Virus record (IMG/VR): IMGVR_UViG_3300000117_000145
Location: 771-30,333 of that record
Direction: 5' to 3' (one strand)
Length of the DNA stretch: 29,563 nt
Source of the DNA: a virus
In this document: positions 16,260 through 29,563 of the stretch, piece by piece
Numbering within the stretch: the stretch's first letter is position 1
How the letters are laid out: every line of letters begins with the position of its first letter
Translations under genes and position numbers: made by a program
The notes under the pieces: generated by a model
What the model was told of the DNA's origin: nothing
The model's database searches: none
The model's input: the letters and a program-made list of their open reading frames with translations, nothing else

Positions 16260-17189
16260 TCAATCTTCGGCAAGACGGGCAAAGTAGGACATTGCATCAT
16301 CGTCCTCATCTTCAGTCATTTTAGAAGAACTCAGACTATCAAGTTCATCTTTGAGTGATTGGGGAACAGAAGGTGCTACATCTCCACGATTCTGCTGACG
16401 AAACTCTTCTTCTTCCTCGATTGTTTCTTGATCTTGGAAACGAGGAGTGCCCTTATTACCGAGCACATAATCCATACGCTTCTTCAAGTCATCATAAGAC
16501 TTGAATTGATCGGGAGCAACAAAGTCTTGAAGAGAATATTCTTTCTTCCAAATCGCTTCCATTGCATCGTCATCATCAAGCAGTGCTTCTTGGCGGGCAA
16601 ACTCTGAAGAGTCATAGTTACGATAACCAGCAACGTTCTTTGCCTTCAGTTTGAAGTTGGCACCTTGCCAGAAGTCAAAGGGATCGATTGCTTCTTCATC
16701 TTCAAACTCAGGTTGCATTGCGGCAGTGATCTTGTCAAAGATCTTCTTACCGAACTTATACAGGAAGACTTTACCTTCGTTCTCGGGGTTGGCAGGATCT
16801 TTCACCACATAGATATTGCTAATGTAGGTGAGTTTACGCTTCTGCTTACGTGCCTGATCTTTGCCAGCATCGGTGCCATTGTTCCACAGCATCGTGTTGT
16901 ATTCAGACACAGGATCTTTTTGATTCATGGTGGTGAGAGAGTTCTCAATATACCAACCACCAGGACCTTGGAATGCGTGTGAATAGAGTTTCACAAACGG
17001 CAGATCTTCGCCATTAGGAGCAGGAAGGAAACGGATTACGGCATAACCATTACCGCTCTTATCGCATTCGAGTTTCCACAGACGCTCATCACCTGAAGCG
17101 TTTGCATTACTCATTTTTTCGACTTCTTTGACCAGTTTGGCGGTCAAAGATCCCAGTTTGGATTGCTTTTTAAGATCAGCAAAAGACAT
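16260..17189 (-). CDS. 32: Single-stranded DNA-binding protein gp32
   Basis: A 309-aa protein clearly homologous to T4 gp32 (301 aa): LWKLECDKSGNGYAVIRFLP, KLTYISNIYVVKDPANPENE, GKVFLYKFGKKIFDKI and the acidic tail TEDEDDDAMSYFARLAED, which in T4 contacts replication partners. The N-terminal basic B-domain (residues 1-25) mediates cooperativity. In the zinc region His71 (T4 His64) is kept, but the three T4 cysteines (77, 87, 90) correspond to Ser84, Asp92 and Ser95, so the zinc module is lost. The start is preceded by GAGG. A sigma70 promoter and a 9-nt repeat leader precede it, which suggests autoregulated early expression. Confidence 0.95.
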   Translation of the reverse strand: MSFADLKKQSKLGSLTAKLVKEVEKMSNANASGDERLWKLECDKSGNGYAVIRFLPAPNGEDLPFVKLYSHAFQGPGGWYIENSLTTMNQKDPVSEYNTMLWNNGTDAGKDQARKQKRKLTYISNIYVVKDPANPENEGKVFLYKFGKKIFDKITAAMQPEFEDEEAIDPFDFWQGANFKLKAKNVAGYRNYDSSEFARQEALLDDDDAMEAIWKKEYSLQDFVAPDQFKSYDDLKKRMDYVLGNKGTPRFQDQETIEEEEEFRQQNRGDVAPSVPQSLKDELDSLSSSKMTEDEDDDAMSYFARLAED

Positions 17190-17211
17190 TTGGATTACCT
17201 CGGATTTTTTT

Positions 17212-17238
17212 GGATTTGTCGGGTTTGTCGGGTTTGTT
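17212..17238 (-). repeat. Three 9-nt tandem repeats in the gp32 mRNA leader
   Basis: On the minus strand the leader contains three copies of a 9-nt unit (consensus AACCCGACA in one phase, the third with one change), followed by an A-rich stretch and the ribosome site. The sequence is poor in G/T pairing options and should stay single stranded. It is a candidate site for cooperative gp32 binding. Confidence 0.7.
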
Positions 17239-17252
17239 GGATCGACTTGGAT

Positions 17253-17281
17253 AGTATAACAGCGTTGCCCTCAGGTGTCAA
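17253..17281 (-). promoter_or_regulatory. Consensus sigma70 promoter of gp32
   Basis: TTGACA (17276-17281) and TATACT (17253-17258) are separated by exactly 17 nt. The -35 box lies in the last codons of the DUF1825-type gene. Transcription would start near 17246, giving a leader of about 57 nt that consists mostly of the 9-nt repeats. It indicates early, host-polymerase-driven gp32 expression. Confidence 0.75.
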
Positions 17282-17603
17282 GACTTTCTCTGAGAGAATC
17301 AATAGTCGCACCAAAAGTATTAAACAGATAGTTCATGTCAGTGTCTGGGGAAAATCCCATAAGTGTCATGGATTTTTGAAGATTTTTCTTCATCTCCACT
17401 GCTTTTGGATCGTCTGATAATGACAGACGGGCATACATAACTTTTTGTTTTTCTAATAATGTAGATAGTTTATCAACATGTTCCACTTGTTCAGTTTTAC
17501 TCATATGAGGAAATTTCATAATATTGAGATAGATTTCCTCTTGAAGTTTATTAATCTCACGGAGTTCTTCCATGACGATTTCTGACTCGAAAAAATCACT
17601 CAT
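17271..17603 (-). CDS. DUF1825-family protein (cyanobacteria-type)
   Basis: A 110-aa all-helical protein, MSDFFESEIVMEELREINKL. The opening FFxSEIV.EE, the Lys/Glu-rich central helix (EHVDKLSTLLEKQKVMYARL) and a C-terminal MGFSPDTDMNYLFN segment closely follow the plan of the cyanobacterial DUF1825 family, whose function is unknown. That is one of the better hints that the host is a cyanobacterium. It lies between the basic 101-aa gene and gp32, and its stop codon falls in the gp32 promoter region. In T4, gp59 and gp32 are adjacent here. The family call is from memory of the pattern. Confidence 0.7.
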   Translation of the reverse strand: MSDFFESEIVMEELREINKLQEEIYLNIMKFPHMSKTEQVEHVDKLSTLLEKQKVMYARLSLSDDPKAVEMKKNLQKSMTLMGFSPDTDMNYLFNTFGATIDSLRESLDT

Positions 17604-17645: not shown

Positions 17646-17653
17646 TATTTATG
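17646..17653 (-). promoter_or_regulatory. Possible late box (CATAAATA) before the DUF1825 gene
   Basis: CATAAATA overlaps the stop codon of the 101-aa gene, 43 nt before the DUF1825-type start. It is one mismatch from the T4 late box. Weak evidence by itself; the position is suitable. Confidence 0.3.
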
Positions 17654-17954
17654 AATTGTTCTTTAACCTTTGTTTTCTTTCTCTTGCCCGTTTTTTACGG
17701 GTTTCCCTATCTTTTTTATTTTCCCAATACCGCTTCTTTTCTCTATCTCGTCTAGCTAAAATTTGTTCTTCGGTTAATCCTTTTGCCCATCTTTTCTTTT
17801 CATAATCTGGATTTTTTTCTCTCCATTTTTGACGAGATTGTTCTTTTTGAACTTCTCTAGATGGAAATTTTTCAGAATCTGTAATTGATATGTCTTCTAT
17901 AAAATTAGGTCCGTCAATATTAAGGGCACTGTTAATACCTGATACATTTAACAT
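17649..17954 (-). CDS. Small, very basic protein of unknown function (101 aa)
   Basis: After about 35 residues of ordinary composition (MLNVSGINSALNIDGPNFIE), the rest is dominated by Lys, Arg and Glu in helical register: KWREKNPDYEKKRWAKGLTE, then ARRDREKKRYWENKK and a KKRARERKQRLKNN end. This suggests a nucleic-acid-binding helix. Similar KNPDYEKKRW-type repeats occur next to HNH or other DNA-binding domains in phages, but no such domain is present. It has its own perfect TATAAATA late box 22 nt upstream and a structured RNA element before that. I do not recognise the family. Confidence 0.65.
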   Translation of the reverse strand: MLNVSGINSALNIDGPNFIEDISITDSEKFPSREVQKEQSRQKWREKNPDYEKKRWAKGLTEEQILARRDREKKRYWENKKDRETRKKRARERKQRLKNNS

Positions 17955-20593: not shown

Positions 20594-20600
20594 TATTTAG
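20594..20600 (-). promoter_or_regulatory. Late promoter-like box (CTAAATA)
   Basis: CTAAATA lies 23 nt upstream of the 83-aa gene and overlaps the 3' end of the HNH gene. It would give the PhoH cluster a late transcript independent of the HNH gene. Confidence 0.4.
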
Positions 20601-21163
20601 ACCCACTCTAAAGATCTTTTAGAGAGTTTTTTTATGTGTTCAGAAAATTTATTTAGAGATAAATCCATTTTCATAGTATTACATATGTGGCAACAAGATA
20701 CCGAATTGTTAGAAGTATACCCAACACTGTTATCTTGTCTGTCTATCCCCCAATGTGAGAATGGAATACCAACATTACTTTCTCTTAAAATTGGAGGTTC
20801 TCCACAATAATAACAGGATTTTGTAATAATGTCAAAATGTTCTTTTTTTGTTAAAGACCACTCCTTTCCTCTGTGTTTAGCAGATCTTTTACAATCACCA
20901 TAAATTTTATTGTGGTAAGATTCTATTGTTTTTTGTTTTCTTCCAGTTTCCTTAGCTCTATCAGATCTAAGACAACCACAACTTTTACTTGTTCCTCTTG
21001 TTAGATAATCACCTCTAACTAATTTTTCTACTCCACATTCACATTTACATAGAAAACATCTAACAGGACGATTACTTGTTCCAAAATATTGAATTGTGGG
21101 GGAAGAACTTATAACTTCCCACCTATTAAATTTTTGTCCCTCATTAAGTGTTATTGCTTTCAT
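20597..21163 (-). CDS. Free-standing HNH endonuclease (homing type)
   Basis: A 188-aa protein with the start at MKAITLNEGQKFNRWEVISS. An N-terminal zinc module (CFLCKCECG ... TSKSCGCLRSD) is common in phage HNH proteins. The core comprises CYYCGEPP, HWGIDRQDNSVGYTSNNSVS and CCHICNTMKMDLS, the HNH fold with two CxxC pairs. An upstream ATG at 21178 would sit almost on the predicted transcription start of the TATAAATA promoter at 21185-21192, so the second ATG is preferred. It lies between thyX and the FmdB-like gene, as expected of a mobile homing gene. It probably cleaves intron-less or endonuclease-less relatives of the neighbouring locus. Confidence 0.85.
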   Translation of the reverse strand: MKAITLNEGQKFNRWEVISSSPTIQYFGTSNRPVRCFLCKCECGVEKLVRGDYLTRGTSKSCGCLRSDRAKETGRKQKTIESYHNKIYGDCKRSAKHRGKEWSLTKKEHFDIITKSCYYCGEPPILRESNVGIPFSHWGIDRQDNSVGYTSNNSVSCCHICNTMKMDLSLNKFSEHIKKLSKRSLEWV

Positions 21164-21184
21164 AGATATAACATACACTATATC

Positions 21185-27667: not shown

Positions 27668-29563
27668 AAGAATTTAAAAAAGCAAGTGTAGTTAATGCAC
27701 TGCTACCTCCACCACCACCTCCTCCTCCAGCATCACCAGTTCTTGAGAATGTTAATGCCAACGGATGACTATTAGAAGGTACAGAACCTGATGGATTACT
27801 AACATTAACAAGATAATATTGATTAGATCCGGATCCTTGTAGAGATGATACCAAAGTAACATTAAATACTGTAGTATATTGAGTTCCAGAAGTTGATGCG
27901 GACTTAAGTGTCAAATAACCTTTAGTTGAACTTGTAGAATCATCCCAAGACGTAATCCATCCTGTTTGAGTAGTTGAATTAGCATCATCTTTGTGTACAT
28001 ATATCTGACTTACACCACTAATACCTCCCCAATTAAATCTAATTGTACCTGCAGGTATCGCACTAGTAGTGATATCAGTACTAAAGTTATATCGTACACC
28101 TGAAATATTTCCTTGAGTTCCTGTTGTACCTTGTACCGAAGTTCCTGTTGTACCTTGTACCGAAGTTCCTGTTGTACCTTGTACTGAAGTTCCAGTAGTA
28201 CCCTGAGTTCCTTTTGTACCTTGTACTGAAGTTCCGGTAGTACCTTGGGTTCCTGTTGTACCTTGAGTGCCCGAACCACCACTTATTGCAGCACCATTGA
28301 CAGTAAGAGTTCCATCAATATTGGTGTTACCACTTACATGTAATTTATATTGTGGATTAGTAGTGCCAATTCCAACTTTATCTCCAGTGGTACTATATGG
28401 TCCAACTAAAATAGTGCCACCAGCATCAACATCAATTGAAGGAATACCCGAAATATCATTGACTGAGAAGATACTTCCTGAAGAAAGGTTATTAGTAATA
28501 GAGAACAACTGACCAGCAGATGCTTCAAAACTTAAAGTTCCACTATTTAAAGTATCATAGTGAACAATATCAATTATAGTTCCTATTCCAATTGTTCCAA
28601 CACCAGAAGAAGGGCCACTATATGTAAATGAATCTGACCCTGCAGCAGTATTACTACTATTCTTATAAACAATTTGATTCGCAGATCCTGCTACTGGTCC
28701 AGAGGTTCCGGTAGTACCTTGTACCGAAGTTCCTGTTGTACCTTGTACCGAAGTTCCGGTAGTACCTTGTACCGAAGTTCCTGTTGTACCTTGTACCGAA
28801 GTTCCTGTTGTACCTTGAGTTCCTTTTGTACCTTGTACTGAAGTTCCGGTAGTACCTTGTACCGAAGTTCCGGTAGTACCTTGTACCGAAGTTCCTGTTG
28901 TACCTTGTACTGAAGTTCCGGTAGTACCTTGTACCGAAGTTCCTGTTGTACCTTGTACTGAAGTTCCTGTTGTACCTTGAGTTCCTTTTGTACCTTGTAC
29001 TGAAGTTCCGGTAGTACCTTGTACCGAAGTTCCTGTTGTACCTTGTACCGAAGTTCCTGTTGTACCTTGTACTGAAGTTCCAGTAGTACCTTGGGTTCCA
29101 TCGGTTCCCTGAGTACCATCTGTACCTTGGGTTCCATCAGTTCCCTGAGTACCATCTGTACCTTGGGTTCCATCAGTACCTTGGGTTCCATCGGTTCCTT
29201 GAGTACCTGTGGTTCCTTGAGTTCCATCAGTACCTTGGGTTCCATCAGTACCTTGGGTTCCATCGGTTCCTTGAGTTCCTGTTGTACCTTGGGTTCCATC
29301 AGTACCTTGGGTTCCATCAGTACCTTGGGTTCCATCGGTTCCCTGAGTTCCATCAGTACCCTGAGTACCTATGGTTCCTTGAGTACCTGTGGTTCCTTGA
29401 GTTCCATCGGTTCCTTGAGTACCTGTGGTTCCTTGAGTTCCATCAGTACCTTGGGTTCCATCAGTACCCTGAGTACCTGTGGTTCCTTGAGTTCCATCAG
29501 TACCTTGGGTTCCATCAGTACCTTGGGTTCCATCAGTACCTTGGGTTCCATCGGTTCCCTGAG
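27666..29563 (-). CDS. Collagen-like tail fibre protein, C-terminal part (5' end outside window)
   Basis: One minus-strand frame stays open from the right edge to TAA at 27666-27668, about 632 codons, without any start in the window. In N-to-C order: a long GTDGTQ collagen-type Gly-X-Y array (to about 29092), an octapeptide array GTTGTSVQ (to about 28702), a globular spacer with KVGIGTTNPQYKLHVSG and IDGTLTVNGA, a second short GTTGTSVQ array (28111-28272), and a C-terminal beta domain (YNFSTDITTSAIPAG, then SQIYVHKDDANS) ending GGGGSSALTTLAFLNS. The apparent TTG at 28508 is internal. Fibrous trimeric tail fibre or tip protein is the likely nature. Confidence 0.85.
   Translation of the reverse strand, partial: QGTDGTQGTDGTQGTDGTQGTDGTQGTTGTQGTDGTQGTDGTQGTTGTQGTDGTQGTTGTQGTIGTQGTDGTQGTDGTQGTDGTQGTDGTQGTTGTQGTDGTQGTDGTQGTDGTQGTTGTQGTDGTQGTDGTQGTDGTQGTDGTQGTDGTQGTDGTQGTTGTSVQGTTGTSVQGTTGTSVQGTTGTSVQGTKGTQGTTGTSVQGTTGTSVQGTTGTSVQGTTGTSVQGTTGTSVQGTTGTSVQGTKGTQGTTGTSVQGTTGTSVQGTTGTSVQGTTGTSVQGTTGTSGPVAGSANQIVYKNSSNTAAGSDSFTYSGPSSGVGTIGIGTIIDIVHYDTLNSGTLSFEASAGQLFSITNNLSSGSIFSVNDISGIPSIDVDAGGTILVGPYSTTGDKVGIGTTNPQYKLHVSGNTNIDGTLTVNGAAISGGSGTQGTTGTQGTTGTSVQGTKGTQGTTGTSVQGTTGTSVQGTTGTSVQGTTGTQGNISGVRYNFSTDITTSAIPAGTIRFNWGGISGVSQIYVHKDDANSTTQTGWITSWDDSTSSTKGYLTLKSASTSGTQYTTVFNVTLVSSLQGSGSNQYYLVNVSNPSGSVPSNSHPLALTFSRTGDAGGGGGGGGSSALTTLAFLNS
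28111..28272. repeat. Second, short 24-nt repeat array in the collagen-like gene
   Basis: A second group of GTTGTSVQ/GTKGTQ units lies after the globular spacer, with sequence nearly identical to units of the long array 400-900 nt away. The two arrays are direct repeats and could recombine. Confidence 0.85.
28702..29563. repeat. Minisatellite array (18- and 24-nt units) in the collagen-like gene
   Basis: Between 29092 and the right edge, 18-nt units encode GTDGTQ with rare GTTGTQ and one GTIGTQ. From about 29091 down to 28702, 24-nt units encode GTTGTSVQ with a few GTKGTQ insertions. Synonymous third-base differences show that units have diverged. The array is truncated by the window. Confidence 0.9.

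Follow-up and report, generated by a model that had tools for sequence, protein, structure and literature searches.

A periodic repeat array in the gp32 leader of a marine phage, a candidate autogenous operator

The window, the whole 29,563-nt stretch of viral DNA analysed here (positions 771 to 30,333 of the IMG/VR record IMGVR_UViG_3300000117_000145), encodes a single-stranded DNA-binding protein of the gp32 type. This annotation was supported by Pfam PF08804 (E 3.2e-49), PHROG phrog_224 (E 2.8e-125) and solved PDB gp32 chains (E 1e-48 to 1e-49). Upstream is a DUF1825 gene, and a promoter that begins within the 3' end of that gene is followed by a periodic array that continues to the gp32 start codon. 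The features of the locus are as follows:

16260..17189, minus strand: gp32, single-stranded DNA-binding protein of 309 aa, both the gene under control and the putative regulator
17190..17252, minus strand: array of seven units, ATCCAAGTCG ATCCAACAA ACCCGACAA ACCCGACAA ATCCAAAAAA ATCCGAGGTA ATCCAA, then ATG; recognised from the sequence, the spacing in relatives and autocorrelation
17197..17201, minus strand: Shine-Dalgarno sequence GAGGT, within the penultimate unit; the unit ATCCGAGGT(A) is common to most relatives
17216..17233, minus strand: two extra 9-nt units (ACCCGACAA twice) relative to the usual five-unit leader, from comparison with relatives
17227..17246, minus strand: weak 4-bp stem, GUCG (17246-17243) with CGAC (17230-17227); speculative, also folds in the related locus L393
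17246, minus strand: predicted transcription start, 7 nt past the -10 box, placed by promoter geometry
17253..17258, minus strand: -10 box TATACT, with a 17-nt spacer to the -35 box
17276..17281, minus strand: -35 box TTGACA, overlapping the 3' end of the DUF1825 gene
17271..17603, minus strand: DUF1825 gene (PF08855, phrog_468), whose 3' end holds the -35 box

Other features of the window were also recorded. A terminator-like hairpin with a T-tail (16252-16235, minus strand) separates gp32 from the baseplate gene that converges on it. A 101-aa Lys/Arg-rich ORF (17649-17954, minus strand), flanked by the helicase-loader gene and the DUF1825 gene, has no match in Pfam or PHROG, and among the replication genes a 193-aa ORF (20597-21178, minus strand) resembles, by eye, an HNH homing endonuclease. 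Long tandem repeats (18-162 bp) lie within open frames at 28114-29563 and apparently belong to a repetitive tail or collagen-like protein.

The sequence-only reading of this DNA had placed a consensus sigma70 promoter before gp32, and this is present: TTGACA-17-TATACT (17281-17253) agrees with the consensus at 11 of 12 positions, and TG precedes the -10 box. The 9-nt tandem repeats that it had reported in the leader are also real, and Tandem Repeats Finder (TRF) detects 2.6 perfect copies at 17215-17237. However, these copies are the middle of a longer array. What had been described as three repeats and an A-rich run is a series of seven units over 63 nt, the whole stretch from the -10 box to the gp32 start, with the unit ATCC(A/G)A recurring every 9-10 nt. 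The 9-nt repeat CCCGACAAA is a local variant and corresponds to two diverged units within the seven-unit array. The first unit lies between the -10 box and the predicted +1, and the array spans the Shine-Dalgarno sequence and ends with a unit directly before the start codon. A repeat score that permits steps of 8-11 nt was applied to 70-nt windows on both strands; the leader's 70 nt scored 25.0, a value that only 2 of 11,798 such windows reach, both of them overlapping the leader. A single match to ATCCN5-6ATCCN5-6ATCC was found in the window, against none in 100 shuffles.

Within the window's clade, the gp32 leaders examined share the array, conservation in relatives being a point on which the sequence-only reading had staked its claim. 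Of 80 loci, three lack the leader (L002, L028 and L066), leaving 77 usable leaders for autocorrelation. Promoter and spacing were parsed in 76; L077, in which the start is placed 3 nt off, was excluded from this step and kept for autocorrelation, folding and core counts. TTGAC with a TATAMT-like -10 box was found in 74 of the 76 leaders, with a 17-nt spacer in 71 of the 74, and one of the two leaders scored as promoterless (L001) is an artefact of the 90-nt cut. Units are spaced by 9 nt (126 cases) or 10 nt (117 cases) in 243 of 254 intervals; the motif search fixed ATC[CT], so the unit letters are partly given by construction and the spacing is not. The first unit is conserved, beginning at offset 0 in 43 of 74 leaders. 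Autocorrelation of 50 de-duplicated leaders from the 77 exceeded shuffles at lags 9, 10, 18 and 19 (z 15, 12, 7.6 and 11, values inflated by the relatedness of the leaders). In the GenBank records of S-SKS1 and P-SSM2 (L090 and L091, around 701-776), the annotated gp32 start looks wrong: the conserved start, which abuts the array, is 75 nt further upstream.

Copy number varies by whole units among the window's closest relatives, which have 5, 6 or 7, as the sequence-only reading had anticipated; beyond this group it is nearly constant. The distance from the -10 box to ATG is 38-46 nt in all 74 relatives versus 63 nt in the window, which equals the common 45 nt plus two 9-nt units. The double insert occurs in three further contigs: L324, which is the same contig as L001; L439, which matches the window at 100% identity across 4,675 bases; and a diverged strain, L342 (main segments at 92.9-99.4% identity), in which it is kept. 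L393 has one insert only (53 nt). The two ACCCGACAA copies in the window are identical and look recently duplicated, as might follow from replication slippage. Yet the proposal that the array as a whole is a functionless, neutral tandem duplication is very improbable, given that ATCC stays constant while the spacers vary and that the spacing is preserved across divergent leaders and lineages.

As to which gene the array serves, the 20-mer AATCCGAGGTAATCCAAATG, the exact array end, has at least 119 matching stretches in IMG/VR, and a gp32-type start (M..F..L) follows in 120 of 120 occurrences among the loci examined. When the 60 nt upstream of all ORFs of at least 90 aa were ranked by repeat score, the gp32 leader was first of 200 in S-SKS1, first of 158 in Melnitz and second of 195 in 44RR. 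The signal is weak in Syn9, where the rank is only 28 of 149. Unlike the window, a T4-like phage has a gp32 leader with no 9-10 nt period and a rank of only 76 of 184. The upstream region that is second behind gp32 in S-SKS1 (HQ633071.1, near 146522, minus strand) has a repeat score of 17.0. The pattern ATCYN5-6ATCYN5-6ATCY was tried as a specificity test and rejected as too loose, with scattered genome matches in 14 of 15 records and some matches in controls. A stricter pattern, applied to 14 records, matched solely outside the gp32 leader in G002 and G003; these matches are taken to be coding repeats.

Arrays with other units were identified in further gp32 lineages. We used 74 of 80 loci from a Syn9 query and 77 of 80 from a Melnitz query, the rest being too short or having a misplaced start. 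Syn9-query leaders carry AATAC(A/G)A-type (AATACRA) units, some mixed with AATCC (L133), and lag 9 is strongest (z 9; 63 of the 74 after de-duplication). Melnitz-query leaders carry the ACATACG-type units AACATACGAT and AACATAAGGAG, with z 18 at lag 10 and z 7 at lag 20 (61 of the 77 after de-duplication). The pattern ACATA-N-ACATA-N-ACATA had no match in 8 records, and Melnitz itself has only two close units. By eye, KVP40-like and 44RR-like leaders have arrays of about 10 nt, which for 44RR is also backed by its rank. In the Syn9 record (L105, 1245-2192) the single-stranded DNA-binding protein is labelled 'T4 gp53-like'.

Unit type tracks the gp32 tree, with 29 changes versus 77.5 in shuffles (FastTree, 138 of 240 proteins kept after reduction, with long-branch warnings). 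A partly shared core, AUMCRA, picked after looking at the leaders, occurs 3.14 times per leader in the window's clade versus 0.22 in shuffles, 1.38 versus 0.25 in Syn9-query leaders, 1.19 versus 0.56 in Melnitz-query leaders, and 3.0 versus 0.62 in two KVP40-like leaders. It is absent from 44RR-like leaders and from the T4-like leader. The link between unit type and gp32 lineage bears on the idea of an RNA operator read by a protein other than gp32, for instance the phage's RegA or an RNA-binding protein of the host. RegA would be a candidate, being reported to repress several mRNAs through their A/U-rich start regions (PMC3014915, in the part available). We nevertheless give this idea little credence: RegA targets many messages and the array is found at gp32, and the unit type follows the gp32 lineage, although linked inheritance could also yield that pattern.

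The array may act in DNA or in RNA. Promoters were checked in 11 Melnitz-type loci and in 8 sister loci selected by eye. In the 11 Melnitz-type loci, the stop codon of the upstream gene lies 10-17 nt before the gp32 ATG, the units fall within its last codons, and there is no promoter above chance (0.23-0.80 of shuffles score as well). The 8 sister loci have a TTGACA-17-TANNNT promoter 46-50 nt before the ATG, and 0-8% of shuffles score as well. A DNA operator, with a transcription factor bound past the -10 box to direct repeats at intervals of roughly one helical turn, would suit the step of nearly 10 bp, the location of the first unit ahead of the predicted start, and the adjacency of array and promoter in most of the 74 (of 76) promoter-bearing leaders of the window's clade. 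However, the persistence of units in the 11 loci where no promoter is detectable, the 5' stem of about 46 nt that separates promoter from array in L369 and L435, and the fact that in the window's clade the array stops at the start codon make such an operator quite improbable. For the first two of these reasons we favour a role at the RNA level, judging from sequence patterns. Counting against this reading, the first unit precedes the predicted start and would therefore lie outside the main transcript, though it is conserved. The sequence-only reading had suggested autoregulation; the enrichment at gp32, the inclusion of the ribosome-binding site and the promoterless presence in another lineage would fit such control if it operates on RNA.

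Folding showed little structure near the start codon. The last 50 nt of leaders have a mean MFE of -1.5 kcal/mol (mean z +0.5) in the window's group and -0.4 kcal/mol (mean z +0.3) in the Melnitz group; the Syn9 group is more structured (mean MFE -2.8 kcal/mol). The predicted 57-nt leader RNA of the window folds at -5.8 kcal/mol (z -1.5), so the earlier statement that it has almost no self-pairing did not hold; its only stem is the 4-bp GUCG/CGAC, as given by tools that do not model pseudoknots. No Rfam family matched in the window or in 13 related loci.

Several relatives have a 5' stem ahead of the array, including Syn9 (GCTAC/GTAGC), S-PM2, L369/L435 and L341/L352. Differing stems, of the types GTTGGG/CCCAAC, GGTTG/CAACC and CTGAT/ATCAG, lie between the promoter and a shorter array in L369, L435, L092, L302, L341, L352, L354 and L408. 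S-8S56 has the GTTGGG/CCCAAC pair, unformed in the MFE fold of a stretch that begins one base inside the stem. In Syn9-type leaders (L105, L107, L095, L096, L108-L124), a 5-6 bp hairpin with compensatory changes directly follows a TAAATA late-promoter-like sequence about 45-65 nt before gp32. In a covariation test on 19 such leaders, a set picked by eye for resemblance, 92.1% of cells are paired and 6 cells are changed on both sides, each reached in 0 of 500 shuffles; only 2 pairs have double changes, a number reached in 38 of 500 shuffles. The contrast with T4 drawn by the sequence-only reading, in which the window's leader dispenses with structure, is thus dependent on lineage.

Lack of structure would also be expected of a translation enhancer. 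In this explanation the A/C-rich leader would give ribosomes a standby site or bind S1, and its AUCCA units would base-pair with UGGAU, which adjoins the anti-Shine-Dalgarno in the 16S 3' tail. Leaders are less structured and G-poorer than most upstream regions in their own genomes, the last unit directly follows the Shine-Dalgarno sequence in most relatives, and GAGGTAATCCA in the leader resembles GAGGTGATCCA, the extended complement of the 16S tail. Large amounts of gp32 are expected to be produced. We consider this explanation unlikely, for four reasons. The Melnitz- and Syn9-type leaders keep the period with units (ACATACG, AATAC) that are not complementary to the 16S tail, so that complementarity does not extend to every array lineage. 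In the 153 non-Shine-Dalgarno units tallied, the sixth base is always A or C and G does not occur there, so pairing with 16S would end at five bases. Tether sites require no fixed 9-10 nt spacing. Lastly, among the matches listed, the exact array end is found only before gp32. An extended Shine-Dalgarno or standby leader is similar in being unstructured through the ribosome-binding site; the array differs in its fixed 9-10 nt period, its lineage-specific unit and its association with one gene.

The best-described comparison is the T4 gene 32 operator. In the available parts of PMC535899 and PMC3014915, gp32 of T4 and RB69 is reported to repress its own mRNA; in T4 a pseudoknot nucleates binding, and UUAAA/UAAA repeats take further monomers over the ribosome-binding site. 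The likeness to the window is that a gp32 mRNA leader, mostly unstructured, carries short repeats that overlap the ribosome-binding site, with its own product as the proposed regulator. The window's clade shares the less-structured stretch with short repeats, the window itself having the weak 4-bp stem. The T4 operator combines a 5' pseudoknot with UUAAA/UAAA; in the window the repeated element is AUCC(A/G)A at 9-10 nt steps, and folds from tools that do not model pseudoknots show only the 4-bp stem. TTAAA occurs 0.10 times per leader in the window's clade, below shuffles at 0.26. Because it departs from the UUAAA/UAAA feature, we class the window's leader, on its sequence features, as a gp32-operator-like variant rather than as an instance of the T4 operator.

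Diversity among gp32 operators is to be expected, since neither a conserved pseudoknot nor an A+U-rich stretch is reported for RB49 in the available part of PMC3014915. The RB69 operator, diverged in sequence and still repressed by gp32, is a precedent for drift between lineages (PMC535899, in part); it is close to that of T4 with a similar RNA structure, and the portion of text available describes no 9-10 nt array. The STAXI motif also places tandem elements near single-stranded DNA-binding protein genes (PMC2864571, in part). STAXI units are two or three tandem pseudoknots, whereas the units of the window's clade are unstructured as far as folded, with pseudoknots not directly modelled, and match no Rfam family.

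By analogy with T4, we think it reasonably probable that gp32 binds its own leader cooperatively and represses translation there, the leader being an autogenous operator built on the periodic unit. Transcription would begin about 7 nt past the -10 box. As read from the DNA, the mRNA leader would be an A/C-rich, G-poor strand with AUCCAA every 9-10 nt, and the Shine-Dalgarno sequence and start codon would lie in or touch the last two units. When gp32 is in excess of single-stranded DNA, monomers would line up side by side on the array, about one per unit, and the loaded protein would cover the ribosome-binding site, as in T4. Exposure of single-stranded DNA would draw gp32 away, and translation could resume. 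The unit may give this RNA an advantage over other mRNAs in gp32 binding, its spelling drifting with gp32 lineage, as the correlation with the tree suggests. The 5' stem of some lineages, backed in one of them by covariation, is perhaps an element for nucleation or stability akin to the T4 pseudoknot.

That the array is sized for gp32 monomers, as the sequence-only reading proposed, is approximately so: the available parts of two papers give the occluded site of T4 gp32 as 7 nt (PMC10484735) or 8 +/- 1 nt (PMC12893549), shorter than the array step, so one monomer per 9-10 nt would imply gaps or a larger site in these proteins. More broadly, gp32 is a largely sequence-independent binder of single-stranded DNA, and any sequence-specific reading of AUCC by gp32 would be hypothetical. 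More tentatively, and with less confidence than in the operator itself, we suggest that gp32-type proteins might recognise in RNA a unit that differs between lineages, recurs at constant 9-10 nt intervals and, in marine T4-like and KVP40-like phages, has a core (AUMCRA) partly in common. The leader would then be a ruler for the number of monomers needed to silence translation; unit and protein would co-evolve, and the threshold would be tuned by whole units.

A literature search, with most subscription journals outside its coverage, found no report of gp32 leader repeats in cyanophages. How gp32 selects its own mRNA has been called unclear even for T4 (PMC535899, in part), and a 2010 review called for a more thorough study of gp32 autocontrol across the diversity of T4-related phages (PMC3014915, in part). 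The arrays predict that cyanophages and related marine phages have an autoregulatory site at a core replication gene. Across many marine phages, these leaders differ naturally in how the unit is spelled and spaced, in copy number and in the 5' stem, which makes the question of gp32 mRNA selection directly testable.
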